64,000 nucleotides of DNA from the NCBI GenBank assembly GCA_021404565.1, contig JAAWWF010000042.1, positions 62,001-126,000 of the forward strand, written 5' to 3'. The position numbers were made by a program, and so were the translations under genes. Under the pieces are notes generated by a model, which worked only from the letters and a program-made list of their open reading frames with translations, was not told the DNA's origin and made no database searches. Below are positions 19,796-32,940 of this stretch, one piece after another; position 1 is the stretch's first letter; each line of letters starts with the position of its first letter. The DNA comes from Roseivirga sp. (GTDB lineage: Bacteria; Bacteroidota; Bacteroidia; Cytophagales; Cyclobacteriaceae).

Positions 19796-20083
19796 TTAAT
19801 TGAGTTCAGGAACAAGGTTCCACAGCGCCTGTCTTTTTTGTTGGGTATCTTTCAATAGACTGATGCCCGCTTGAGTGAGCTGAAAGATGCGTTTTCTGCG
19901 ACCGCCCCTTTGAGCCGTGGCCCCCCCAACTCTCGATTTTACATACCCTTTGTCTTCCAGCCGGTAGAGGGTGATATGTACTGCACTCAGATTCACATCC
20001 CTGTCCATTCTGAGCTTGATTTCCTCAACAATGTTGATGCCATAGGCGTCAGCTTGTAACAGGGCACAGGTGACCATAACCAA
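19796..20083 (-). CDS. PadR family regulator with unusual start
   Basis: A winged-helix PadR regulator. Residues VNLSAVHITLYRLEDKGYV are the recognition region, followed by GGRRKRIFQLTQAG (wing). The frame continues upstream of the annotated TTG (20083) as KYKLFEEL, which matches helix 1 of the paralogue at 32608, but no ATG, GTG or TTG exists there; the only downstream ATG is at 20077. A promoter with tandem TTTTACAA boxes lies directly upstream and the second box runs into the expected start. It probably represses its own promoter and the adjoining permease gene. Confidence 0.75.
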   Translation of the reverse strand: MVMVTCALLQADAYGINIVEEIKLRMDRDVNLSAVHITLYRLEDKGYVKSRVGGATAQRGGRRKRIFQLTQAGISLLKDTQQKRQALWNLVPELN

Positions 20084-21267: not shown

Positions 21268-23628
21268 TTATTCGTGTCTTAGGGCGACTACCGGATTCTT
21301 TGCGGCCGTTCTGGCTGACTGCAGGCTTACGGTCAATACTGTGACAAAGAGCACGGCAATACCGGCTCCTGCAAAGGTCAGCAGGTCTACATGAATGCGA
21401 TAGGCGAAACTGCCCAGCCATTGGGAGACGGCATAGTAACCCACCACTCCGGCCAGTCCCGTGGCTATCAGCAGAGAGGGGAGAAACTCCTTATTGAAAA
21501 TCATCAGTAAGCTGAGCAGGGGAGCGCCCAGTACCTTGCGAATGCCTACCTCTTTGGTTTTAAGTTCACTGATATAAGCTGTTAGCCCCACTAATCCGAG
21601 CACTGCCAGACCAATGGCCAGTGCCGACAGGATGATACTGAGCTTTGCTGTATGTGCATCGTTTTGATAGGCCTTCTGAATATCCGTTTCCATAAGCTCA
21701 AACCGTACGGGACCCTCAGGAACAAATTCATCCCAGACATTGCTGATGTAATCCAGCATTGCGGCCATATTCACGGCATTTACCTTTACGAGTATGTTCT
21801 GGTTTACATACTCCCGGTTGTCTCTGGCAAAGAGGAGCATTGGCGTTACATCCTGATGTAGTGAGAAAAAGTTATAGTCTTTGAAAACTCCCCTGATCTC
21901 ATGATAGCGAGGTTCAGGGCTGTCAGGTCTGGTATTGATTCGCTTACCGATGGGGTTGTCCCAACCCAGCTTTCTTACCAGGGCTTCGTTTACCAGCAGA
22001 GAGCTTCTGGGGTGCTCGTTGGAAGCCTCACTGAAATATGGTCCCTCCAGTCCTTCGATGTCCAGCACCTGGAAGTAGTCATGATCTGTACCCGCACTTA
22101 AGGCATCGCTATACGCTACCTCTGACCCCTCCGGTTGATAATTCATGGTATAATCTTCATCACCGGGAACATAGCCTTGTGAAACCCCTGATATGGATGG
22201 ATTTTCCATCAGCCTGTTCTTCAGGTTTCTGATATTATCCGCTCCCTGAAGTGCCCAGGCTTGCTTTATTTTTATCACCCCTTCTGCTTCAAACCCCAGG
22301 TCTTTGTTGGCCATGAATTGCAGTTGCTTGTTGGTGAAATAAGCCATGGCCCCCAGGCCGATCAGCAAGGTGAACTGTGTGGTAATCATTACTCTCCTCA
22401 TCAAAAGACCTCCGCGAAGCGATTTACTCTCTCTGCGAAACAGGTTGAGAATTTTGAGCTGAGGCAGTACAAAGGACGGATAGATGCCACCCAATACCCC
22501 GGTCAAAACGGCTATAGAAACCAATAACAGAATGCTTACAGGATCGGAAACGAATTTGTTTTCCAACTCAATGCCGATGAAATTATTGAATTCCGGCAGC
22601 AATGATTCTATAATGAAAATAACTACGGGCAGGCAGAGACAGGCGATGAGGACTGACTCAAACATAAACTGAAATGAGAGCTGGCCTTTGCTACTTCCCA
22701 ACACCTTGCGCATGGCTATCTCGTTGCTGCGTTTTGAATACAGTGCTGATGACAGATTGGTATAATTCGTCACCGAAATCACCAGGATGATCAGCGCAAT
22801 GAGTGAAAAAATAAAGAGCTGTGTCTTGTTGCCACCTTTTTTGAGTTCAAAAGTCATTTTCGAATTCAGGTGAATGCTTTCCAGGGGCTGCGCCTTTATT
22901 GCCGCAAGAGAGTCATACTCGTTCAATCCCAGGTTGAGTTGCTGGATTTTATCAGCCACCAAATCAGCATTTGTGTTGCGATTTATATTGGAATAGAAAA
23001 TGGAGGAGCCGTTACTTCTGTCTAAATAAGTAGGATGCACAATCAACTGCTCGAATTCGAGGTGGGTGTTGGTTGGCAGATCTTCGATCACTCCGGTAAC
23101 CTTAACCAGCAGACTATCGAATTTAAAAGTTTGGCCTACTGCCCCTTGTCCGGGGAAATATTTTTCAGCCAGAGAGGCAGTGAGTATGGCGGTATTGGGT
23201 GCAGAAACGAGGCTTTCAGGATTTCCCTGAAGCAGCTTGAAGTCAAACAAATTGAAGAACCGTGAGCCCGGCTCTAAAATCAACGTCTTGTTGGTATTGA
23301 ACTTTTGATTACCCACCGTGCTGTACTTTGAGGGTGTTCTTGATATCCTGACCATATTGGTCATACCGGGGAAGGGGTGCTTCATCAGCTCTTGGGTATA
23401 TTGAATTTCCATGGAGGGAATCCAGGGACCATACACCCTTTTACCGGCAAAACGATAGGTATCTTCAGGGTTGTGGTGAAAACTATCGTAGCTGGACTCA
23501 TGCTGAACATAGAGAACGACCAGGGCACAACAAGACAAACCAATGGTGAGTCCGGTAAAGTTGATCAGGTGATAGAGCTTTTGCTTTCTGTAATTTCGAA
23601 GGGCGATTTTTAAAAAACTTCTGAGCAT
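21268..23628 (-). CDS. FtsX/MacB-like ABC permease
   Basis: A 786-residue double-length FtsX permease without the prefix domain. The first membrane helix (LINFTGLTIGLSCCALVVLY) precedes a periplasmic MacB core-like domain, then three helices with RKVLGSSKGQL in the first half; the second half repeats this and carries VGIRKVLGAPLLSL near residue 675, ending NPVVALRHE. These are the membrane parts of type VII ABC systems that use transmembrane mechanical coupling. It starts 33 bp after the next permease gene (23662-26031), and the two may form a heterodimer. No ATP-binding gene is nearby. Confidence 0.92.
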   Translation of the reverse strand: MLRSFLKIALRNYRKQKLYHLINFTGLTIGLSCCALVVLYVQHESSYDSFHHNPEDTYRFAGKRVYGPWIPSMEIQYTQELMKHPFPGMTNMVRISRTPSKYSTVGNQKFNTNKTLILEPGSRFFNLFDFKLLQGNPESLVSAPNTAILTASLAEKYFPGQGAVGQTFKFDSLLVKVTGVIEDLPTNTHLEFEQLIVHPTYLDRSNGSSIFYSNINRNTNADLVADKIQQLNLGLNEYDSLAAIKAQPLESIHLNSKMTFELKKGGNKTQLFIFSLIALIILVISVTNYTNLSSALYSKRSNEIAMRKVLGSSKGQLSFQFMFESVLIACLCLPVVIFIIESLLPEFNNFIGIELENKFVSDPVSILLLVSIAVLTGVLGGIYPSFVLPQLKILNLFRRESKSLRGGLLMRRVMITTQFTLLIGLGAMAYFTNKQLQFMANKDLGFEAEGVIKIKQAWALQGADNIRNLKNRLMENPSISGVSQGYVPGDEDYTMNYQPEGSEVAYSDALSAGTDHDYFQVLDIEGLEGPYFSEASNEHPRSSLLVNEALVRKLGWDNPIGKRINTRPDSPEPRYHEIRGVFKDYNFFSLHQDVTPMLLFARDNREYVNQNILVKVNAVNMAAMLDYISNVWDEFVPEGPVRFELMETDIQKAYQNDAHTAKLSIILSALAIGLAVLGLVGLTAYISELKTKEVGIRKVLGAPLLSLLMIFNKEFLPSLLIATGLAGVVGYYAVSQWLGSFAYRIHVDLLTFAGAGIAVLFVTVLTVSLQSARTAAKNPVVALRHE

Positions 23629-23661: not shown

Positions 23662-26031
23662 TTATTCGTGTTTGAGGGCCATAACAGGATCGATCTGGGC
23701 AGACTTAACCGATTGCAGTGCGGTGATCATAAAAACAATCGAGTACACCAATGCGGCTGCCGCAATAAAGGTGACAGGGCTTAGGGCTATGGCATAGGCG
23801 TAATCATTCAGCCAGGTACTTACCAGCCAATAGCTGAAGGCACTGCCGATGATGGCCGAGAAAAGTATGGCCAGAAAGAGCTGACGGTTGAGTAAGGCGA
23901 TAATCTGTAGCAGGGAAGCTCCCAGTACTTTTCGCACCGCTATTTCCTTAGACTTAAGGCCTGTAACATAGATCATAAAGCCGATCAGGCCCAGCAGAGA
24001 AAGTACCACGGCCAATACCGAGAAGGTTACACTCACCTGACCGGTCTGTCGCTCTTTGGCATACATGCGTTTTACTGCTTCGTCCATCAGGTCGTATTCC
24101 AGGGGGACTGAGGGAACTACCTTGTTCCATTCCTCTGCAATGATATCCGTAACTTCCTGTAGGTTGTCAGTAGAGGCCCTTATCAGCAGATTGGTGTTGA
24201 CGAACTGTGGGTCAGGCCTTAAAGAGATGATCTGAGGGGTTACTTTTTCCTTTAGTGTGAAGTAGTGAAAATCTTTGAATACGGCCGAAACCTGTCGATG
24301 CAGCTCGTTTTGTGAGCCTGGTCGCAGAATCAGCTTTTTGCCAATGGGGTCGTCTTGCCAGCCAAAACGCTCGATAAAGCTTTCATTGACCAGCGATACG
24401 ATTTGCCCGTCCTCAGCTGACTGGAGTACGGTTTTAAAATCTCCAGCTGTGATGTTCATACCCATTACATCGAAGTAGTCGATGTCTACCCCATAAGAGA
24501 GCAGGTTTTCGTAAGTCTGGTCAGAACCTTCGGGTTTGTAGGCCAGAGGGTTGGAGCCATCACCCATCATGGGCCCAAAACTTACTCCGGCTACCTGGGG
24601 GTGTGTGAGTAGCTGAGATTTTAAGAGCTGGTAGTTTTTATATTCCCCGATTGAGAAGGCATTGGTTACCTTGATCACCCTGTCCGCATTGAAGCCCATG
24701 TCTTTGCTGTCCAGATAGTCTATCTGCCGGTTCATAAACCAGGCTGAGATGCCAAGGGTAAAGAGCAAGATGAACTGAACAAAGATGAGTGCATTGCGCA
24801 GCTTTACGCCACTGCTGTTGTTTACCGCAGATTTACTCTTAATCAGCTCGCTGATTTTGGTTCTGGTGAGCAGGGTAGCGGGGTAGGCCACCGTGATTAT
24901 GCTCAGGGTAATCACAAAAGCCAGGGTAACCGCCCAGTAGATAGGGGAGCTCAATAGCTTGTTTTGCAGGTTCACCTCAAGGAATTCACTAAAAACCGGC
25001 AGCAGAAAGTACAGGCCGAGTATTACCAGCGGAATGGTCATAAAGGTCATAAGTATTGACTCCCAGATAAAGGCGCGAATGATTTGAGAACGTGATTCTC
25101 CCAATACCTTGCGCATACCTATTTCCAGACCCTTGCTGCTATAAACAGCCAGGGAGAGGTTAATGTAGTTGGCAACGGCAATCAGCAGAATCAGCCCGCC
25201 AATAATCATAAAGACCGTGAGTTGTAGGATATCGCCCTTGCCTCCTGAACCGAAGACAGCATCAGATCCGAAATAGATGTCTTCTACAGGCATCAGGCGT
25301 ACCTCGGAGAGCGTGTGAAACTCATCCCGGGCCACGTCCATATCCTTAATCTTGACTTCCAGCCCAGTCGGATCAGCATCGTTTACAAGCTGTATATAGC
25401 TCTGCGTATGGAAATGATCCTGACCAAAAGTGACCGGGTTGGCATACAATATGTTGAAGTCAAGATGGCTGTTGGTGGGCAAGTCTTCTATTACCCCGGT
25501 GATTTTGAGGGGAATGGAGTCGTATTTAATCACCTGACCGAGAGGGGAGGTCTTGCCGAAGTATTTTTCTGCGGTAGAGGCCGTAATTACAGTGACATAG
25601 GGTTCATTCAGGAAGGTTTCCCGGTTGCCTAGTAGTTCTTTGAAACTAAACAGTTCGAAAAAATCGGAACCAGGCTTGGTCTGGTAGATTTTCTCCTCTG
25701 AATAGCGCTGGTTGTTATAGCTTAGAAAGGCCCGCGGATGTCCGTTTAGCTGCACTACCGTCTCTACCTCGGGGTAACGGCCTGAAGTAAGTTCTTTGCC
25801 ATGTTCCATACCAATATTGGAAAACCAGAGGTCGTTGTTGGTGATGGCTTCCAGTCGATAGGTGTTTTTTACATCCTTATGAAAGCTGTCATAGCTGAAC
25901 TCATGATCTGCATAAAGCAAAATGAGCATAGCGGCTATCATGCCTAATGACAGGCCTAGAATGTTGAGACTGTTGAGCAGCTTGTCCTTTAAAAAATTCC
26001 TAACGAGGAGGTTGGTAAAAATCCTGAGCAT
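23662..26031 (-). CDS. FtsX/MacB-like ABC permease, first gene of a permease operon
   Basis: A 789-residue paralogue of the 21268 permease with the same two-half design: helix LNSLNILGLSLGMIAAMLIL, periplasmic domain, GMRKVLGESRSQ in the first half, AVRKVLGASLLQI in the second and DPVMALKHE at the end. It opens the minus-strand run of genes that probably extends through 20161. Its ATG faces the ATG of the kinase at 26184 across a 152-bp region containing the phased GTTAA array, so it is the best candidate target of that two-component system. Confidence 0.92.
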   Translation of the reverse strand: MLRIFTNLLVRNFLKDKLLNSLNILGLSLGMIAAMLILLYADHEFSYDSFHKDVKNTYRLEAITNNDLWFSNIGMEHGKELTSGRYPEVETVVQLNGHPRAFLSYNNQRYSEEKIYQTKPGSDFFELFSFKELLGNRETFLNEPYVTVITASTAEKYFGKTSPLGQVIKYDSIPLKITGVIEDLPTNSHLDFNILYANPVTFGQDHFHTQSYIQLVNDADPTGLEVKIKDMDVARDEFHTLSEVRLMPVEDIYFGSDAVFGSGGKGDILQLTVFMIIGGLILLIAVANYINLSLAVYSSKGLEIGMRKVLGESRSQIIRAFIWESILMTFMTIPLVILGLYFLLPVFSEFLEVNLQNKLLSSPIYWAVTLAFVITLSIITVAYPATLLTRTKISELIKSKSAVNNSSGVKLRNALIFVQFILLFTLGISAWFMNRQIDYLDSKDMGFNADRVIKVTNAFSIGEYKNYQLLKSQLLTHPQVAGVSFGPMMGDGSNPLAYKPEGSDQTYENLLSYGVDIDYFDVMGMNITAGDFKTVLQSAEDGQIVSLVNESFIERFGWQDDPIGKKLILRPGSQNELHRQVSAVFKDFHYFTLKEKVTPQIISLRPDPQFVNTNLLIRASTDNLQEVTDIIAEEWNKVVPSVPLEYDLMDEAVKRMYAKERQTGQVSVTFSVLAVVLSLLGLIGFMIYVTGLKSKEIAVRKVLGASLLQIIALLNRQLFLAILFSAIIGSAFSYWLVSTWLNDYAYAIALSPVTFIAAAALVYSIVFMITALQSVKSAQIDPVMALKHE

Positions 26032-26087
26032 GTCGCAATGTTTGTATGAACTTACGGGCCATGCGACTCAGGGTGGATTAATAGAGA

Positions 26088-26133
26088 GTTAAGCTTACTT
26101 AGCGAAAGATTAAATTGGTTAAGGAAAAGTTAA
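26088..26133. promoter_or_regulatory. Phased GTTAA array upstream of kinase/regulator operon 1
   Basis: Five pentamers stand on one helix face: GTTAA 26088, CTTAG 26098, ATTAA 26109, GTTAA 26118 and GTTAA 26129, with steps of 10, 11, 9 and 11 bp. A further ATTAA at 26077 extends the phase upstream. The same step pattern recurs at 30367-30412 before the paralogous operon. Helically phased direct repeats are the usual target of OmpR/PhoB-type regulators. The array lies between divergent genes and could serve both the kinase operon and the permease operon. Confidence 0.7.
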
Positions 26134-26160
26134 AATCGAACGCAAAGGTTTAAAATCACG

Positions 26161-26168
26161 TATTTTCG
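26161..26168 (+). promoter_or_regulatory. -7 element of kinase/regulator operon 1
   Basis: TATTTTCG differs from the Bacteroidota TAnnTTTG consensus at one base. It lies 27 bp after the last GTTAA of the array and 15 bp before the ATG at 26184; operon 2 has exactly the same distances. No TTTG occurs at the -33 position, as expected for an activator-dependent promoter. The leader would be very short. Confidence 0.55.
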
Positions 26169-26183
26169 ATAGACGATAAAGCC

Positions 26184-27515
26184 ATGAATCTCTCAAAAAA
26201 GGCAATAACATTTGTAATAGGGCTGGCATCACTGGCACTGATCGGGCTTGCGGTAATTCAGGTACGCAACCTGAATTCATCGATAGAGACCAATCGCCAT
26301 ATTTTCCTGCAGACGGTAGATCTGTGCTCCGGTAAAATCGGAGATCTTTTCGGTAAAGACCACCACTACGCCTCCTTACTCTTTGATGCTGTTAAGCATG
26401 TAAACAAAACAGGGGAGCTCAATGATCCGAAATTGGATGGTCAGATTCGTGAACTGGTGGATAATGTATTCAGGGAGTTTGGTCTGGATCTGTCTTATGA
26501 ATATGCCGTATACAAACATACAGATATGGAGACCCCTGATGGAGCTCCTATTTTTAGCTTTGTGCTCGGAGACGAGGGCAGTAGTCTCGATTTTCAATTA
26601 AGGGATTGTACCAATCCTCAGGACCGTGGGCATGCCTGGTCTACACTCACCTGTTCCAAGGGCTTTGACGAGGACGAAGGCTATCATCTGGCCGTTTTCT
26701 TCCCCAATCAGGAGACTTATATATTCGCTCAGTCAAGCGGAGCACTTATGTTGTCAGTAGTCTTTATCCTGCTGCTACTTTGTTGTTTTGCATATACACT
26801 GATTGTCATTCAGCGCCAGAAAAAACTGTCTGTGATTAAGAACGACTTTATCAATAATCTGACCCACGAATTCAAGACTCCCATCGCTTCTATCTCGCTG
26901 GCTACCAGTATGCTGAAGCGCAAAAAAGAAGAGGTGGACGAGCGAAAAAGGGCCAATTACCTGGATCTGATCGAAAACGAAAGTAAGCGCCTGGAAGGGC
27001 AGGTAGATAAGGTGCTGCAGATAGCCATGATCGACTCCGGTAATTTTTCTCTCAATAAGAAAGAGCTGGATGTTCACGAGATCATTCATCGTGTAGTAGC
27101 CAGCATGAACCTGGTGGTGAACAAGCGCAAGGGAGCGATTAAACTGATGCTCAATGCGGCAAGTGCTAAGGTAATGGCAGATGAAACCCACCTGGTCAAT
27201 ATCATCTACAACCTGGTGGACAATGCCCTGAAATATACCGTGGATATTCCTGAAATTCTGATAACTACAGTGGATAGCGATCAAGGGATAGAAATATCTA
27301 TCAAGGACAACGGTATCGGTATCGGAGAAGAGATTCAGAAATACATTTTTGATAAATTCTACAGGGCCGAAACCGGCAATGTGCACAATGTAAAAGGCTT
27401 TGGTCTAGGGCTGAGCTATGTGAAAAAGATCATTGAGGCCCATAGTGGTAAGATTGCCTTGCAAAGCAAGCTTAATCAGGGCAGTGAGTTTCGTTTGTAT
27501 TTTCCATTCAGTTGA
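26184..27515 (+). CDS. Membrane sensor histidine kinase (operon 1)
   Basis: A 443-residue HisKA-type kinase. Two membrane segments (residues 9-27 and about 185-209) enclose a roughly 155-residue periplasmic sensor region of unknown fold containing two Cys (C142 and C157). There is no HAMP or PAS domain. The phosphoacceptor is H228 in DFINNLTHEFKTP; the ATPase domain shows NIIYNLVDNALKY (N box), DNGIGIG (G1) and GFGLGLSYVKK (G2). It phosphorylates the regulator encoded next. It is a close paralogue of the kinase at 30463. Confidence 0.93.
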   Translation: MNLSKKAITFVIGLASLALIGLAVIQVRNLNSSIETNRHIFLQTVDLCSGKIGDLFGKDHHYASLLFDAVKHVNKTGELNDPKLDGQIRELVDNVFREFGLDLSYEYAVYKHTDMETPDGAPIFSFVLGDEGSSLDFQLRDCTNPQDRGHAWSTLTCSKGFDEDEGYHLAVFFPNQETYIFAQSSGALMLSVVFILLLLCCFAYTLIVIQRQKKLSVIKNDFINNLTHEFKTPIASISLATSMLKRKKEEVDERKRANYLDLIENESKRLEGQVDKVLQIAMIDSGNFSLNKKELDVHEIIHRVVASMNLVVNKRKGAIKLMLNAASAKVMADETHLVNIIYNLVDNALKYTVDIPEILITTVDSDQGIEISIKDNGIGIGEEIQKYIFDKFYRAETGNVHNVKGFGLGLSYVKKIIEAHSGKIALQSKLNQGSEFRLYFPFS

Positions 27516-27520
27516 TTTTT

Positions 27521-28201
27521 ATGGGTAGGATTCTTTTGGTAGAAGACGATGACAGCTTCGGGTATATCTTAAAAGAGTATCTGGACATTCATGACTTTTC
27601 AGTCACCTGGGAGCAGGATGGTGAGGCCGGGCTTCGGGCTTTTCAGCAAGGCGTTTATGATCTCTGTATCCTGGATATCATGATGCCTTTGAAGGATGGT
27701 TTTACCCTGGCCAAGGAGATTCAGGAGCAGGACCCTGAGGTGCCTTTTATTTTTCTTACTGCCAAATCACTTAGGGTAGATAAGCTCAAAGGCTTTAGGC
27801 TAGGCTGTGATGATTATGTGGTGAAGCCCATTGATGAGGAACTCTTTATCGCTCGCGTGAAAGCCATTATCAAACGCTCGGGAGACAGCAACGGGGCACA
27901 ACAGTCACTGGCACACAGGATCGGGAAATACCTTTTTGATCCGGCCAATCAAACCCTGGTACTTGGTGAAAACGTACAGCGGCTGACCACCAAGGAAGCC
28001 AAGCTTTTACAACTGCTCTGTGAGAAGAAAAACCAGGTACTCGATCGCAATAAAGCCCTGAAAACTGTCTGGGGTGAGAGCGACTTTTTCAACCGCAAAA
28101 GCATGGATGTTTTTATCCATAAGCTCCGTAAATACCTGGAAGAAGACGATTCAGTGAAGATCACCAATGTGCACGGTAAAGGCTTTGTGTTGGAGGTTTA
28201 G
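27521..28201 (+). CDS. OmpR-family response regulator (operon 1)
   Basis: A 226-residue regulator from the ATG at 27521; a TTG at 27512 overlapping the kinase stop is less likely. The receiver domain has the acidic pair ED near residues 8-10, phosphoacceptor D52 in LCILDIMMP and the conserved Lys in YVVKPID. The winged-helix DNA-binding domain covers about 130-226 (LTTKEAKLLQLL, RKSMDVFIHKLRKYL). It is 5 bp downstream of the kinase. Its likely binding site is the GTTAA array upstream of the operon, which would make the system autoregulated. Confidence 0.93.
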   Translation: MGRILLVEDDDSFGYILKEYLDIHDFSVTWEQDGEAGLRAFQQGVYDLCILDIMMPLKDGFTLAKEIQEQDPEVPFIFLTAKSLRVDKLKGFRLGCDDYVVKPIDEELFIARVKAIIKRSGDSNGAQQSLAHRIGKYLFDPANQTLVLGENVQRLTTKEAKLLQLLCEKKNQVLDRNKALKTVWGESDFFNRKSMDVFIHKLRKYLEEDDSVKITNVHGKGFVLEV

Positions 28202-28252: not shown

Positions 28253-29701
28253 TCATCCCGCCTCCTTATTCAGCAGAGTTCGACAAAAATCCAGAAACAC
28301 CTGCAAATCATTGAAGTTGGTGACATAACCAATGGAAACTCTTACAGCTCCTCGTTTTTGACCCATAAACTCGATCAGATTGAAGTAGTCCTTGGCACCA
28401 TCCTGTCTGAAGTAGGCCTGAAGCTTTTCGGCCTTTAGCTGGTGATTGGTTTCGTCAATTCCCGGATTACAGAAGCAGCCGGTTCGAAGAGAAATGTTCT
28501 GCTCGAAAGCCGCCTGCTCAATGCTGATAAAATCATGAAGTCTTCCGAAGGAATCATAAAAGTTCATGGCCAGGGTGCCTCCTCGGTTTTCACCGTTTTG
28601 AGGTCCGTAGATTTCTATCAGCCGCTGACCATTTTTATGCCTGAGCTTGACCAGCTCACGCAGCAGGTACTCTGTAAGACAGGCTACGCGGGTGTTGATC
28701 TGCTGGATACCAATAGCCTCGATATATTCCAAGCCTGTTTTGATGGCGGGGATGTCCAGGTAGTTGACCGTGCCTTCCTCAAAGCGAGCGGCTTCCTTTT
28801 CCAGGTAGTGGCCATCACCCTGTACGGATACAATGGTAATCGTACCCCCTGCAAAAGAAGGTTTTTTAAGCTTTTCAAAGGCCGTTTTCTTCACGAGCAG
28901 CGCTCCCAAACCAGTGGGGTAACCAAAGATTTTATAGAAGGAGACTGCCACAAATTCAGGTTGATGCATAAGCAGATCCAGCCGGTCACTGGGCACAAAA
29001 GCCGCAGCATCGAGCAGTACATCCCAACCCAGAGACTGAGCTTCCTCAATCCATTCCAGATTGTGCTTGACTCCGGAAACGTTGCTCTGAGCAGGGAAGG
29101 CAAAGAGTTTGTTGTTTCCTTCCTGCTGCTTAAGGTTTTTCGAAAGCGCAGACCTGTCTATTCGCAGGTCTTCATCGAGCGGACTGTATTGAAATGGACA
29201 ACCTTTGGCCCGGGCAAACTCCCTGATTCCATTGACAGAGTTATGATTGTCAAAGGTCATCAGGAATTGTCCCTCTTTGGTAAAAGGATAGCATTCACCT
29301 ACAATTTTGACAGCCGCAGAAGCATTGGCTGTGAATATGCAGATATAGTCATCTCCGGCATTGAAGTAATCGAGTACCTTTTGCCGGGTAGCCTGAATGT
29401 GTGATTCTGCCAGGGCAGAGCTGGGGTTGATAGAGTGAGGATTACCCAGGATGGTAGATGACAGAAACTCCTGATGCTTTATGACCTGACTCTCTCCAAA
29501 GAGGTGCCCTCCAGTATAGTCGAGGTAGACGTGCTTCTGTTCGTCCAGCTTCTTAAAATCTACATCGCGTAACTGGTCTATGTCAGTAGTGGAGGCATAA
29601 TCGGGGAAATCGCTTAAAAACTGCTCATAATGTGACAGACCGATGGCATTACGGTTTTTTTGAAGAAAGGGGAGGGCGTTGAATAACCTGAGCATTTTCA
29701 T
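28253..29701 (-). CDS. PLP-dependent class V aminotransferase, molybdenum-cofactor-sulfurase-like
   Basis: A 482-residue fold-type I PLP enzyme. The Schiff-base lysine is K257 in SFYKIFGYPTGLGALLV, and D231 in LLDAAAFVPSD would contact the pyridine nitrogen. The stretch YLDYTGGHLFGESQV and the C-terminal RTGCFCNPG with C409 and C411 are shared with the N-terminal domain of eukaryotic Moco sulfurase (MOCOS) rather than with ordinary IscS/NifS. One of these Cys would carry the persulfide. The MOSC domain is absent. Its ATG overlaps the rhodanese stop (ATGA), so sulfur transfer between the two proteins is plausible. Confidence 0.8.
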   Translation of the reverse strand: MKMLRLFNALPFLQKNRNAIGLSHYEQFLSDFPDYASTTDIDQLRDVDFKKLDEQKHVYLDYTGGHLFGESQVIKHQEFLSSTILGNPHSINPSSALAESHIQATRQKVLDYFNAGDDYICIFTANASAAVKIVGECYPFTKEGQFLMTFDNHNSVNGIREFARAKGCPFQYSPLDEDLRIDRSALSKNLKQQEGNNKLFAFPAQSNVSGVKHNLEWIEEAQSLGWDVLLDAAAFVPSDRLDLLMHQPEFVAVSFYKIFGYPTGLGALLVKKTAFEKLKKPSFAGGTITIVSVQGDGHYLEKEAARFEEGTVNYLDIPAIKTGLEYIEAIGIQQINTRVACLTEYLLRELVKLRHKNGQRLIEIYGPQNGENRGGTLAMNFYDSFGRLHDFISIEQAAFEQNISLRTGCFCNPGIDETNHQLKAEKLQAYFRQDGAKDYFNLIEFMGQKRGAVRVSIGYVTNFNDLQVFLDFCRTLLNKEAG

Positions 29702-30303
29702 TGATTTGGGACGAATAAGGTGTTTTTACAAGAGAGTTCGCTGTCGGGGGTGTTTTTCCAGGCATTGAGGCCTCCCATCAGATTTCTGATTTTGGTAAAT
29801 CCATTGTCAGCAAGGATTTTACTTACCCTGGGGCTCCTGGCACTGATGGAGCAATGGACGAGAATCTCTTTGTCTTTATAGGCTTCCAGTTCATCCAGGC
29901 GCTGGTTGATCTCCCTGATGGGAATGTTGATCGCGTTTTTAAAATGTCCGAGCTGAGATACTTTCCCTTCAAACTCAGCGGCCGATCGCACATCTAAGAG
30001 CAGAAGATCGGGGTTGGCCTGAATAAGGTTACAGAGCTGGTTTGCCGTAATGTTCATATAGTTGAGCCCTTCATTGGGATTGATCGTATTGATGAGCTTC
30101 ATGCCGCAGGTTTTACAATTACCGGGACCATGTACCAGCTTGTCATCGTCTTCGCAGCCACAGGGAGTACATTTGTAAATGGGCCCGGTGCTTTTGGTAG
30201 TTTGTGCCTGGGTTTTCTGTGAAAGTACCAACAGCAGTGCCAGCAGCACCCCTACCACAATCATCAGGCTTTTGATATCTTGAGCTTTTATTTTCATAAA
30301 CAT
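29698..30303 (-). CDS. Membrane-anchored rhodanese with Cys-rich metal-binding-like domain
   Basis: A 201-residue protein: an N-terminal membrane segment or signal (SLMIVVGVLLALLLVLSQ), a small Cys-rich region at residues 43-70 with C45, C48, C50, C63 and C66 ending in CKTCGMKLI (as in heavy-metal-binding domains of copper ATPases and efflux proteins), and a rhodanese domain from about 85 with active-site C151 in VHCSISARSP. It would transfer sulfane sulfur outside or at the membrane. It is the first gene of the operon with the MOCOS-like enzyme and is divergent from the kinase at 30463, sharing the 159-bp region with the GTTAA array. Confidence 0.85.
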   Translation of the reverse strand: MFMKIKAQDIKSLMIVVGVLLALLLVLSQKTQAQTTKSTGPIYKCTPCGCEDDDKLVHGPGNCKTCGMKLINTINPNEGLNYMNITANQLCNLIQANPDLLLLDVRSAAEFEGKVSQLGHFKNAINIPIREINQRLDELEAYKDKEILVHCSISARSPRVSKILADNGFTKIRNLMGGLNAWKNTPDSELSCKNTLFVPNQ

Positions 30304-30366: not shown

Positions 30367-30412
30367 GTTAAGCCCCGTTAAAGAGACGTTAAATGTGTTA
30401 ATGAAAGGTTAA
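30367..30412. promoter_or_regulatory. Phased GTTAA array upstream of kinase/regulator operon 2
   Basis: Five exact GTTAA pentamers start at 30367, 30377, 30388, 30397 and 30408, steps of 10, 11, 9 and 11 bp, identical to the array at 26088-26133. The last pentamer begins 55 bp before the start codon in both operons. The region separates the divergent rhodanese operon from the kinase, so both may be controlled. Confidence 0.75.
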
Positions 30413-30439
30413 TGGGCGTTTTGCATATTTTGAGATGCT

Positions 30440-30447
30440 TATTTTTG
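30440..30447 (+). promoter_or_regulatory. -7 element of kinase/regulator operon 2
   Basis: TATTTTTG matches TAnnTTTG exactly. It lies 27 bp after the last GTTAA and 15 bp before the TTG start at 30463, the same distances as in operon 1. There is no -33 TTTG, which fits regulator-dependent activation. Confidence 0.65.
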
Positions 30448-30462
30448 AATAAATATTGACAG

Positions 30463-31788
30463 TTGAGATTCTCTAAGTGGACCATCTATATCGTGATTGC
30501 TGCTGTGGCTCTATGCATGGCAGGGCTTATCTATGTACAGCTTAGAATCTTTAAGGCTGATGTGAAGGTTTATGAGCAACAGTTCAATCTGACCATTCCG
30601 GAATACCTCAGCGAGTTGCAGGACGAAATCAGGCATGATGAAGCCTGGGTCAATATGGTCAACGAATTTGACGGTGAACAGGAGGCCTTTACCATCGAAT
30701 CCTTCGAGAAGCGCCCGGGAAATGAGATTCTTGGAAGGCTAAAGGATAAGATCGATTTTGTATTTGAAAAGAATAACCTCAGTATTGAGTATGAGATCAA
30801 AGGGCTGATCGCCTCTAACCATCGCTGCTTTTATTATTCCGAAGAGATGGATAGGACACTCCATCCTTTTATCAATGAAGTAACCCCCACAGATCATTTT
30901 CTTTGTCTCTGTGGACCCAGCCCGGGTGCCTCTCACGGTAGCCATGGAGCAGGTAATTACACAGCCTTTGATATCAGCTTCAACTACCCCAATTTCATCT
31001 CAGAAAATGCAGCCATGCTGCGGGTTACCATCCTCTTGCTCTTAGTCCTTGTACTGGCATTTGCTTATACCGTGATCACCATCAACAGGCAGAAAAAACT
31101 CTCACAGCTTAAAAATGATTTCATCAATAACCTGACACACGAATTTAAAACGCCCATTTTTTCCATATCACTGGCCTCCGGGCTTTTGAAGAGATCTGAA
31201 AAGGTAAAGGAATCAGAGAAGCTCTTTAAGTATGCCGAACTGATCGATAATGAAGGGCAGCGGCTCAAAAGCCAGGTAGATAAAATCCTGCAAATGGCCC
31301 TGATTGATTCTGGTAATTTTAAGCTTGAAAAGAAACAACTGGACCTACATGAGCTGATTGGCAAAGTGGCCAAGAACTTTGAACTGGTGGTAAATGAACG
31401 GGATGGATTGCTCAAGCTGGATTTGCACGCTGACATGCATGTGATTGTAGCAGATGAAACACACCTCAACAACATCATCTATAACCTGCTGGACAATGCT
31501 GTAAAATATACAGACGAGAAACCTGAAATTACCGTCAGCACTGTTGATTCGGACAAAGGTATTGAACTCAGAATCAGCGACAATGGGATAGGAATGGGAG
31601 AGGACGTACAAAAATTTGTCTTCGACAAATTCTATCGGGCTGAATCGGGAAATCTACACAATGTAAAAGGTTTTGGTCTTGGGCTGAGCTACGTGAAAAG
31701 TGTGATTGATGCGCATAAAGGCCGGATTATCCTGGACAGTAAGCGCAATAAGGGAAGTGAATTCAGTATTTTTTTACCCGCTAAATGA
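30463..31788 (+). CDS. Membrane sensor histidine kinase (operon 2), TTG start
   Basis: A 441-residue paralogue of the kinase at 26184. Membrane segments lie at about residues 7-26 and 185-207. The periplasmic region differs most from the paralogue and ends with a Cys/His-rich stretch (C148, C150, then ASHGSHGAGNY), which may bind metal. Kinase motifs: H226 in INNLTHEFKTP, NIIYNLLDNAVKY, DNGIGMG and GFGLGLSYVK. The start is a TTG directly behind an in-frame TGA; the conserved distance to the upstream -7 box and array supports it. It partners with the regulator that overlaps its stop codon. Confidence 0.92.
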   Translation: MRFSKWTIYIVIAAVALCMAGLIYVQLRIFKADVKVYEQQFNLTIPEYLSELQDEIRHDEAWVNMVNEFDGEQEAFTIESFEKRPGNEILGRLKDKIDFVFEKNNLSIEYEIKGLIASNHRCFYYSEEMDRTLHPFINEVTPTDHFLCLCGPSPGASHGSHGAGNYTAFDISFNYPNFISENAAMLRVTILLLLVLVLAFAYTVITINRQKKLSQLKNDFINNLTHEFKTPIFSISLASGLLKRSEKVKESEKLFKYAELIDNEGQRLKSQVDKILQMALIDSGNFKLEKKQLDLHELIGKVAKNFELVVNERDGLLKLDLHADMHVIVADETHLNNIIYNLLDNAVKYTDEKPEITVSTVDSDKGIELRISDNGIGMGEDVQKFVFDKFYRAESGNLHNVKGFGLGLSYVKSVIDAHKGRIILDSKRNKGSEFSIFLPAK

Positions 31789-32480
31789 TGAGTGATAAAA
31801 CGAGAATCCTCCTGGTAGAGGACGATGCTAATCTGGGATACATTCTGAAGGAATACCTGGACGTATACGACTTTGATGTAGACTGGGTCAAGGATGGCGA
31901 AGCCGGACTCGATCAGTTTAAGCGACTTAAGTACGACCTCTGTATCCTGGATGTCATGATGCCCAAAATGGATGGTTTTACACTGGCCGGGAAAATCAAA
32001 TCTTTTGCCCCGGAGGTCCCCTTGATTTTTCTTACCGCAAAAGCATTGAAGATTGATAAACTTAAAGGCTTTAAGCTGGGAGCCGATGATTATATCGTAA
32101 AACCGGTAGATGAGGAGGAATTGATCGCCAGAATCAATGCAATTATCAAACGCAGCGGTCAATTACAGGAGGAGCATCAACCCTCACTTTTTCAAATTGG
32201 CAATTACGAATTTGATTATGCCAATCAATCACTCGCCCGCAACGGTAAAAAGCAGCTCATTACCACCAAAGAGGCTGAAATCCTCAGGCTCCTGTGTATC
32301 AACAAAGGCAAGCTGCTCGACAGGCAAACTACGCTGAGAGAGCTATGGGGTGAGAGTGATTACTTCAATCGCAGAAGTATGGATGTCTTTATTTCCAAGC
32401 TGCGCAAATACCTTAGTGACGACCCTGCCGTGAAGATTACCAATGTACATGGAAAGGGCTTTGTCTTAGAAGCTCCCTGA
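31785..32480 (+). CDS. OmpR-family response regulator (operon 2)
   Basis: A 231-residue winged-helix regulator, paralogue of 27521. The receiver carries D56 in LCILDVMMP and the Lys of YIVKPVDEE; the effector domain covers about 135-231 (TTKEAEILRLL, RRSMDVFISKLRKYL). The first ATG overlaps the kinase stop by four bases, giving translational coupling. The recognition helix RRSMDVFISKLRKYL is nearly the same as in the paralogue (RKSMDVFIHKLRKYL), so both regulators could bind the same GTTAA arrays. Confidence 0.93.
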   Translation: MMSDKTRILLVEDDANLGYILKEYLDVYDFDVDWVKDGEAGLDQFKRLKYDLCILDVMMPKMDGFTLAGKIKSFAPEVPLIFLTAKALKIDKLKGFKLGADDYIVKPVDEEELIARINAIIKRSGQLQEEHQPSLFQIGNYEFDYANQSLARNGKKQLITTKEAEILRLLCINKGKLLDRQTTLRELWGESDYFNRRSMDVFISKLRKYLSDDPAVKITNVHGKGFVLEAP

Positions 32481-32607: not shown

Positions 32608-32940
32608 ATGAAGAAGACTTATCTTGGCGAATTTGAAGAAGTAGTGCTTACCATGGTGGGGGTGATAGGAGAGGGCGCCTATGGCAATAGAATTGTTGAA
32701 GAAGTAGAGAAGCAGCTCAATCGTTCAGTCAACCTCAGTGCGGTACACATTACACTTTACAGGCTTGAGGACAAAGGGCTTGTTAGTTCTGATATGGGAG
32801 GTGTCACCTCCTCAAGAGGCGGGAGACGCAAGCGGTTTTTCAAAATCACCAATCCGGGTTTAGCCATGCTTAAGGATTTGCAGGAACAGCGGACTAAGCT
32901 GTGGAAATTAATACCGGGTATGAATTCTTCAGCTTTATGA
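32608..32940 (+). CDS. PadR family transcriptional regulator
   Basis: A 110-residue winged-helix regulator. Helix 1 is LGEFEEVVLTMVGVI, the recognition region VNLSAVHITLYRLEDKGLV and the wing GGRRKRFFKITNPG; the C-terminal helix is LQEQRTKLWKLIPG. It resembles the regulator at 19796 closely over the whole DNA-binding domain. Its stop codon overlaps the ATG of the permease (ATGA), the typical arrangement of PadR-permease pairs in which the regulator represses its own operon until an inducer, often an antimicrobial, is bound. Confidence 0.92.
   Translation: MKKTYLGEFEEVVLTMVGVIGEGAYGNRIVEEVEKQLNRSVNLSAVHITLYRLEDKGLVSSDMGGVTSSRGGRRKRFFKITNPGLAMLKDLQEQRTKLWKLIPGMNSSAL

Follow-up and report, generated by a model that had tools for sequence, protein, structure and literature searches.

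The window, by which we mean the whole stretch of 64,000 nucleotides analysed here, carries two paralogous two-component systems on its forward strand. Operon 1 encodes a sensor histidine kinase of 443 amino acids (HK1, 26184..27515, +; an open reading frame with Pfam HisKA and HATPase_c matches), followed by an OmpR-family response regulator (RR1, 27512..28201, +), whose start is uncertain, with an alternative in-frame ATG at 27521. Operon 2 encodes a kinase of 441 amino acids (HK2, 30463..31788, +; open reading frame and Pfam) and a second regulator (RR2, 31785..32480, +). HK2 begins with a TTG, and this start is supported by a relative (L116) that has an ATG at the homologous position. The two kinases are 45% and the two regulators 63% identical. 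In both RR1 and RR2 the Pfam domains Response_reg and Trans_reg_C score above their cut-offs, which places them in the OmpR/PhoB family. The nearest curated family is RprY (NF051850), the regulator of the RprXY systems of Bacteroides and Porphyromonas, but at 277.7 (RR1) and 291.8 bits (RR2) both proteins fall short of its cut-off of 370, and therefore we regard them as RprY paralogs and not as RprY. None of the regulators of this genome reaches that cut-off, the highest score being 331.1 bits for a regulator on contig C77.

Each operon faces a divergent gene on the reverse strand. Upstream of operon 1 lie two MacB/FtsX-type permease genes with Pfam MacB_PCD and FtsX domains, Perm1a (23662..26031, −) as the first gene and Perm1b (21268..23628, −) downstream of it. 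The top NCBIfam family for the permeases is ADOP (TIGR03434), with scores of 234.4 bits for Perm1a and 260.4 bits for a further permease at 32901, below the cut-off of 622.3 bits. Upstream of operon 2 a rhodanese-domain protein is encoded (29698..30303, −; Pfam Rhodanese), and downstream of its gene a cysteine-desulfurase-like protein (28253..29701, −) that has the SufS family as its top NCBIfam match, under the cut-off. The cluster has at either end a gene for a PadR-family regulator (19796-20083, −, and 32608-32940, +) that adjoins a MacB/FtsX-like permease gene.

The intergenic region in front of each kinase gene contains an array of GTTAA-like pentamers. Array 2 (30367..30412, +) consists of five perfect GTTAA at 30367, 30377, 30388, 30397, and 30408, with steps of 10-11-9-11 bp. 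In array 1 (26077..26133, +), GTTAA at 26088, CTTAG at 26098, ATTAA at 26109, and GTTAA at 26118 and 26129 follow exactly the same steps, as had been predicted from the sequence, and a sixth pentamer, ATTAA at 26077, stands 11 bp upstream of 26088, so that the full series reads 11-10-11-9-11. Array 1 can thus be read as three head-to-tail pairs with a step of 11 bp, the pairs being 20-21 bp apart. Exact direct pairs of the form GTTAA-N6-GTTAA, the SaeR-type box, are present at 26118/26129, 30377/30388, and 30397/30408. The distances to the promoter and the gene are also equal in the two operons, and the original prediction was right on this point as well. The operon 1 box TATTTTCG (26161..26168, +) is -7-like, with one mismatch to TAnnTTTG, while TATTTTTG of operon 2 (30440..30447, +) is an exact match; both begin 32 bp past the start of the last pentamer, and the start codons (ATG at 26184 and TTG at 30463) lie 55 bp past it. 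TAnnTTTG is the -7 consensus described for Bacteroidota (PMC7366714). A TTTG at 30420, 20 bp upstream of TATTTTTG, could serve as the -33 element of operon 2. A scan of the region for sigma-70-type promoters returned 10 against 10.6 expected and was uninformative.

A random density of such arrays throughout the genome would have spoken against a regulatory role. A search of the 8.57 Mb genome for the five-pentamer geometry with at most three mismatches, as the original prediction had proposed, gave two matches, namely the two arrays, and none with the reversed-pattern control. When GTTAA was scored at the offsets 0/21/30/41, array 1 obtained 19/20 and array 2 20/20, and no other place scored at least 19/20 in the 644 kb of the genome that were covered (the window and 29 stretches of 20 kb each); the next-best place reached 17/20, and so did the best of six control geometries and five control motifs. 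Over the 194 genomes of the order the same five-pentamer pattern found eight matches in total against six for the control, so at this tolerance it is not a clean probe elsewhere. Five of the eight accompany genes for RprY-like kinases or regulators, namely the two arrays described here, one match each ahead of a kinase in genomes G180 and G172, and one in G091, where the regulator and kinase are about 3.2 kb away, past a PF14905 gene. The remaining three (a second place in G180, G188, and G088) were away from RprY-like genes. Shorter patterns were rejected as probes. GTTAAN4GTTAAN6GTTAA with at most one mismatch gave seven matches against none for the control in this genome, but over 41 genomes of the family the reversed control, with 132 matches, exceeded the 52 of the pattern, which makes this 15-letter core unusable on its own, and GTTAAN{2,14}GTTAA gave 236 matches against 393 for the control in this genome. 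An initial search for TTAA triples (21 against 6 on one strand, with a control of different letters) was used solely to locate places.

To examine how widely such pentamers accompany related systems, we collected 60 related kinases, three of them from this genome, from 45 of 118 genomes of the order (E ≤ 1e-70), and a second set of at least 80 named loci; both sets are samples and not a census. After seven were dropped as lacking a start, incomplete or duplicate, 133 of 140 upstream regions were usable. A pair of GTTAA 9-11 bp apart occurred in 108 of the 133 on the forward strand, compared with two on the reverse strand and none inside genes, and 29 permuted pentamers put to the same test gave a mean of 0.6 and a maximum of four regions. 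The arrays are therefore not special to the two operons of the window. Forward GTTAA numbered 355 and reverse 68, and the pair distances peaked at 10 (97 pairs), 11 (48), 20/21 (26/32), 30-32, and 40/41 bp. Among 93 representatives with less than 65% kinase-core identity the pair was found forward in 65 and reverse in four, so the enrichment is not due to close relatedness. The 25 regions without a 9-11 bp pair count against the operator model proposed below.

Within this genome the pair marks one type of system. It was present at six of the seven RprY-type kinase operons and at none of the 13 other kinases scored (Fisher p = 1.8e-4), two of these 13 (L015 and L020) having only about 115-130 bp of upstream sequence each. 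RprY-type here denotes the seven regulators with RprY scores of 226-331 bits, the next score being 175; 30 of 67 kinase matches had loci, and 10 of the 30 were left out since their start lay outside the locus. The single RprY-type kinase without a pair, on contig C15, counts against the operator model, and so do arrays of at least three GTTAA away from RprY-type kinases, on C17, C14, C61, C11 (45650), and C27 (26003). The GTTAA-like runs of three to five pentamers have steps of 11-9 on C17 (L224, about 3483), 10-9-10 on C11 (L225, 2651), 10-10-10-10 on C14 (L226, 3214), and 10-10-10 on C61 (L227, 3499). The shorter runs near unrelated genes (C17, C14, C61, and C11:45650) may be further targets or chance. 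An element on C7 (16094-16119; L240 5095-5120), GTTAACACACGTTAACACACGTTAAC, holds three GTTAA at a step of 10 on both strands and is flanked by an RprY-type kinase operon and an operon divergent to it. Tandem repeats of the heptamer GTTAATG with a period of seven (C1:385637-385669 and C23:15282-15314) are unrelated to the arrays and inflate the counts of short-spaced GTTAA pairs. The genome is about twice the size of three sampled genomes of the same genus (8.57 Mb against 4.1-4.2 Mb), in which no close relative of HK1 or HK2 was found, the best matches being 47-48% identical and of the C77 type.

The distance to the promoter is constrained as well. Counted from the start of the last pentamer, 76 of 131 regions have an exact TAnnTTTG 31-34 bp downstream (seven at 31, 34 at 32, 24 at 33, and 11 at 34 bp), while eight altered boxes used as controls occurred in zero to nine regions at 28-38 bp. 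As 34 regions have it at 32 bp, the distance seen in both operons of the window is the commonest of the whole set. Such a distance puts the downstream end of the array immediately before the -33 region, a location that would fit activation in a PhoB-like manner.

We then asked how the geometry is distributed over the lineages. In a FastTree tree of 169 kinase cores (three incomplete rows dropped), HK1 and HK2 both fall into one clade of 15 rows with a support of 95; its named members are, among the matches listed, Fulvivirga, Aquimarina, uncultured Cytophagia, Saprospiraceae, and Bacteroidia. Thirteen of the 15 score 16-20 out of 20 at 0/21/30/41, while among 151 regions outside the clade four reach 16, two reach 17, and none is higher. 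The exceptions are L184, which scores 15, and L261, which has nothing within 250 bp of the called start; in its genome (G220) an 11-10-11-9-11 array stands 331-383 bp before the called kinase start, a distance that counts against the operator model. The original prediction had described the geometry of operon 1 as matched exactly by operon 2. This is true of both operons, but too narrow, since the geometry is a clade-wide property and stands before orthologs of either paralog; it therefore predates the split of the paralogs and persisted as the spacers diverged. In relatives the +10 pentamer, to which CTTAG of operon 1 corresponds, is degenerate, and this leaves 0/21/30/41 as the conserved core. 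The spacers ahead of +21 and +41 are both often near TGAAAA in the clade. The array appears to consist of one upstream half-site followed by two GTTAA-N6-GTTAA units at a distance of 20 bp, of which the first has a weak left half, and this reading would account for the odd 10-11-9-11 steps.

Elsewhere in the tree the geometry differs between clades, examples being 11-10-10 (among others at the C77 kinase of this genome), 10-10, and a single step of 11. For the last pair the step was 10 in 92 rows and 11 in 42, of which three (L113, L114, and L260) were recoded to 11 though their last exact pair is 9. The final pentamer is GTCAA in L113 and L114, and L260 is from the same clade; L260 has TTGAG at 41, so its recoding uses the 0/21/30 sites alone. 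This step co-segregates with the regulator lineage. On the kinase tree it changes four times (mean of 36.1 in shuffled data, 0/500 as low), and on the regulator tree, likewise made with FastTree, it changes twice among 121 labelled rows (mean of 31.1 in 100 shuffles, the lowest being 26).

The recognition helix of the regulators varies little between the two step classes, by a comparison from which 27 of the 169 loci were left out for want of a recovered regulator. S198, D200, V201, and R207 are identical in 84 of 85 step-10 and 35 of 36 step-11 regulators; R197, M199, and K205 are found in 84 of 85 step-10 regulators and in 31, 27, and 26 of the 36 step-11 regulators, respectively, replaced mostly by K, L, and R. 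By this comparison the half-site would be common to both classes and the spacing different. Residue 202 was considered as a determinant of spacing, being Y in 80 of 85 step-10 and F in 31 of 36 step-11 regulators, and was rejected. There are just two to three independent pairs, and the seven exceptions make up two whole subclades of the kinase tree (L009, L273, L274, and L277; L163, L182, and L187), so that the residue is inseparable from ancestry. A tentative extension, to which we give somewhat less than even odds, is a spacing code in which half-site geometry, and not base sequence, would decide which of the approximately seven co-resident RprY-like regulators takes which promoter.

The place of array 1 between divergent operons had suggested joint control of the permease operon. 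The comparison supports this part of the prediction to some extent. Three other genomes have retained the divergent permease, HK1, and the array side by side, with identities of 62% (permease) and 67-68% (HK1) in G227, 51% and 60% in G261, and 61% and 66% in CP030886. In a fourth genome, G204, pentamers at 0/10/21 and 42/51/62 accompany the permease ortholog, while the sole kinase of the window clade that was found lies on another contig, beside another permease, and is nearer to HK2 in the tree; the array can thus stay with the permease alone. Since HK1 and the permease operon flank array 1 on either side, a complex bound there would probably also regulate the permease operon. The array is oriented away from its non-kinase neighbour in all six places looked at, i.e., the window, G204, G223, G091, G172, and C31 of this genome, so activation of such neighbours would need another arrangement.

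Other neighbours were noted in the course of the comparison. The divergent rhodanese gene is kept beside the HK2 ortholog of L116 (54% identity). Arrays stand beside genes for outer-membrane PF14905 proteins in G172 and, at 422 bp, in G091. On contig C33 of G223 (L230 5036-5077), adjoining an HK2-like system, a second 10-11-9-11 array is located 48 bp before a gene for an HlyD-type membrane-fusion protein and faces away from it. In the present genome a 9-11-9-11 array (GTCAA, GTTAA, GTTAA, ATTAA, GTTAA; C31:326160-326204, L222 5161-5205) lies 16 bp ahead of the start called for an operon that encodes a putative lipoprotein and a TonB receptor on the other strand; judged from this site, the operon is a candidate member of the same regulon. 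Small, apparently secreted proteins of 133-149 amino acids with no Pfam match are encoded divergently to the array in three clade members (L113 3440-3841, L115 3421-3837, and L119 3360-3809), and by eye they seem alike.

Direct-repeat operators are the rule in the OmpR/PhoB family, and boxes of the PhoB/OmpR type consist of head-to-tail half-sites about one helical turn apart that adjoin the promoter. The arrays differ from these boxes in having five or six half-sites, alternating steps of 9 and 11 bp, a lineage-specific spacing, and a position by a Bacteroidota -7 box. A closer likeness in letters is the SaeR box of Staphylococcus aureus, GTTAAN6GTTAA, of which TTAA is needed and the G less so (PMC5083920). 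The half-site, its orientation, and the step-11 pair are alike in arrays 1 and 2, and the variants ATTAA and CTTAA seen here agree with the looser need of SaeR for the G. SaeR sites are mostly single pairs, with two or three at some promoters (PMC5083920). The present systems differ in belonging to another phylum, in a regulator closest to RprY, and in an array of fixed geometry, while other clades here use a step of 10. The kind of operator is thus known from PhoB- and SaeR-type repeats, and the new part is its phased, lineage-specific geometry. Regulators that reach the RprY cut-off (at least 370 bits) were found in three of 119 genomes of the class. Two of the three RprXY operons, both of one genus, have a step-10 GTTAA pair upstream of the kinase gene; the third, in G370, has no such pair, which counts against the operator model. 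In the open-licence literature we found no description of GTTAA arrays for RprY-type systems or of lineage-specific spacing, and the word "consensus" has no match in the two RprY papers searched (PMC3646045 and PMC6032018).

Taken together, we infer that the arrays are tandem operators through which RprY-like OmpR/PhoB regulators activate their own kinase operons and, in the case of operon 1, probably the permease operon too, and we assign this reading a probability of roughly 0.7. According to the model, each regulator domain would read one GTTAA half-site, and two regulators would sit head to tail on GTTAA-N6-GTTAA with a step of 11 bp. Since these units repeat about every 20 bp, all of them would lie on one face of the DNA. 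Upon phosphorylation the cognate regulator would occupy the array head to tail, and the regulator bound at the promoter-proximal half-site, 32 bp before the -7 box and just upstream of the would-be -33 element, would help to recruit RNA polymerase and switch on its own operon, i.e., positive autoregulation. The fixed strand, spacing, and distance to the -7 box, the occurrence in this genome at RprY-type kinase operons and at none of the other kinases scored, and a spacing that tracks ancestry strongly support the array as a regulator site. The original prediction spoke of a binding site shared by the two paralogous OmpR-type regulators. By comparison of sequences the part concerning a site for an OmpR-type regulator is well supported, while sharing by RR1 and RR2 is only plausible. 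The two may cross-bind, as both belong to one clade with one geometry, and other paralogs may not, as they have other geometries.

The same regulators might instead bind the arrays to repress the kinase operon, and perhaps the divergent genes, in a negative autoregulation. Porphyromonas gingivalis RprY binds its own promoter in EMSA, a precedent for autoregulation as such, and the authors suggest that it represses genes including its own (PMC3646045). The orientation of the arrays, which face away from the non-kinase neighbours examined, would be compatible with repression as well. On the other hand, the array stops just upstream of the -33 region at a fixed 31-34 bp from the -7 box and leaves both this box and the start site uncovered. 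Such a position is usual for activators of the OmpR/PhoB family, and we consider repression unlikely. Rather improbable is that the arrays are occupied by some other transcription factor common to these operons instead of by the cognate regulators. GTTAA half-sites are also used by other members of the OmpR family such as SaeR (PMC5083920), so that the motif by itself does not tell which protein binds, but the spacing follows the ancestry of the adjacent regulator, with two changes among 121, and the pairs of this genome accompany RprY-type kinases and none of the 13 others scored.

Explanations that need no specific protein, or no function, fare worse. Blocks of A/T-rich DNA phased at about 10.5 bp upstream of a promoter are what intrinsically bent DNA or an UP-like element would look like. 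Neither would be expected to prefer one strand (355 forward against 68 reverse GTTAA), to be absent for 29 permutations of the letters (mean 0.6, maximum four regions), or to have lineage-specific spacing, which makes this explanation very improbable. As HK1/RR1 and HK2/RR2 are paralogous, the resemblance of their A/T-rich promoter regions might also be a coincidence or a remnant of recent duplication. This is hardly credible with just two sites of at least 19/20 in 644 kb and the same geometry ahead of the orthologs of each paralog in other genomes.

Activation through tandem operators, the reading we prefer, provides an operator model that can be tested on a large, little-studied set of two-component systems of Bacteroidota, including relatives of RprXY for which our searches yielded no consensus site, and makes self-regulated and neighbouring targets predictable from sequence. 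A MacB/FtsX-like permease operon and a rhodanese operon are thereby linked to particular sensor kinases. If spacing separates the paralogs, a genome with seven such systems would be a natural experiment on the insulation of duplicated signalling pathways.
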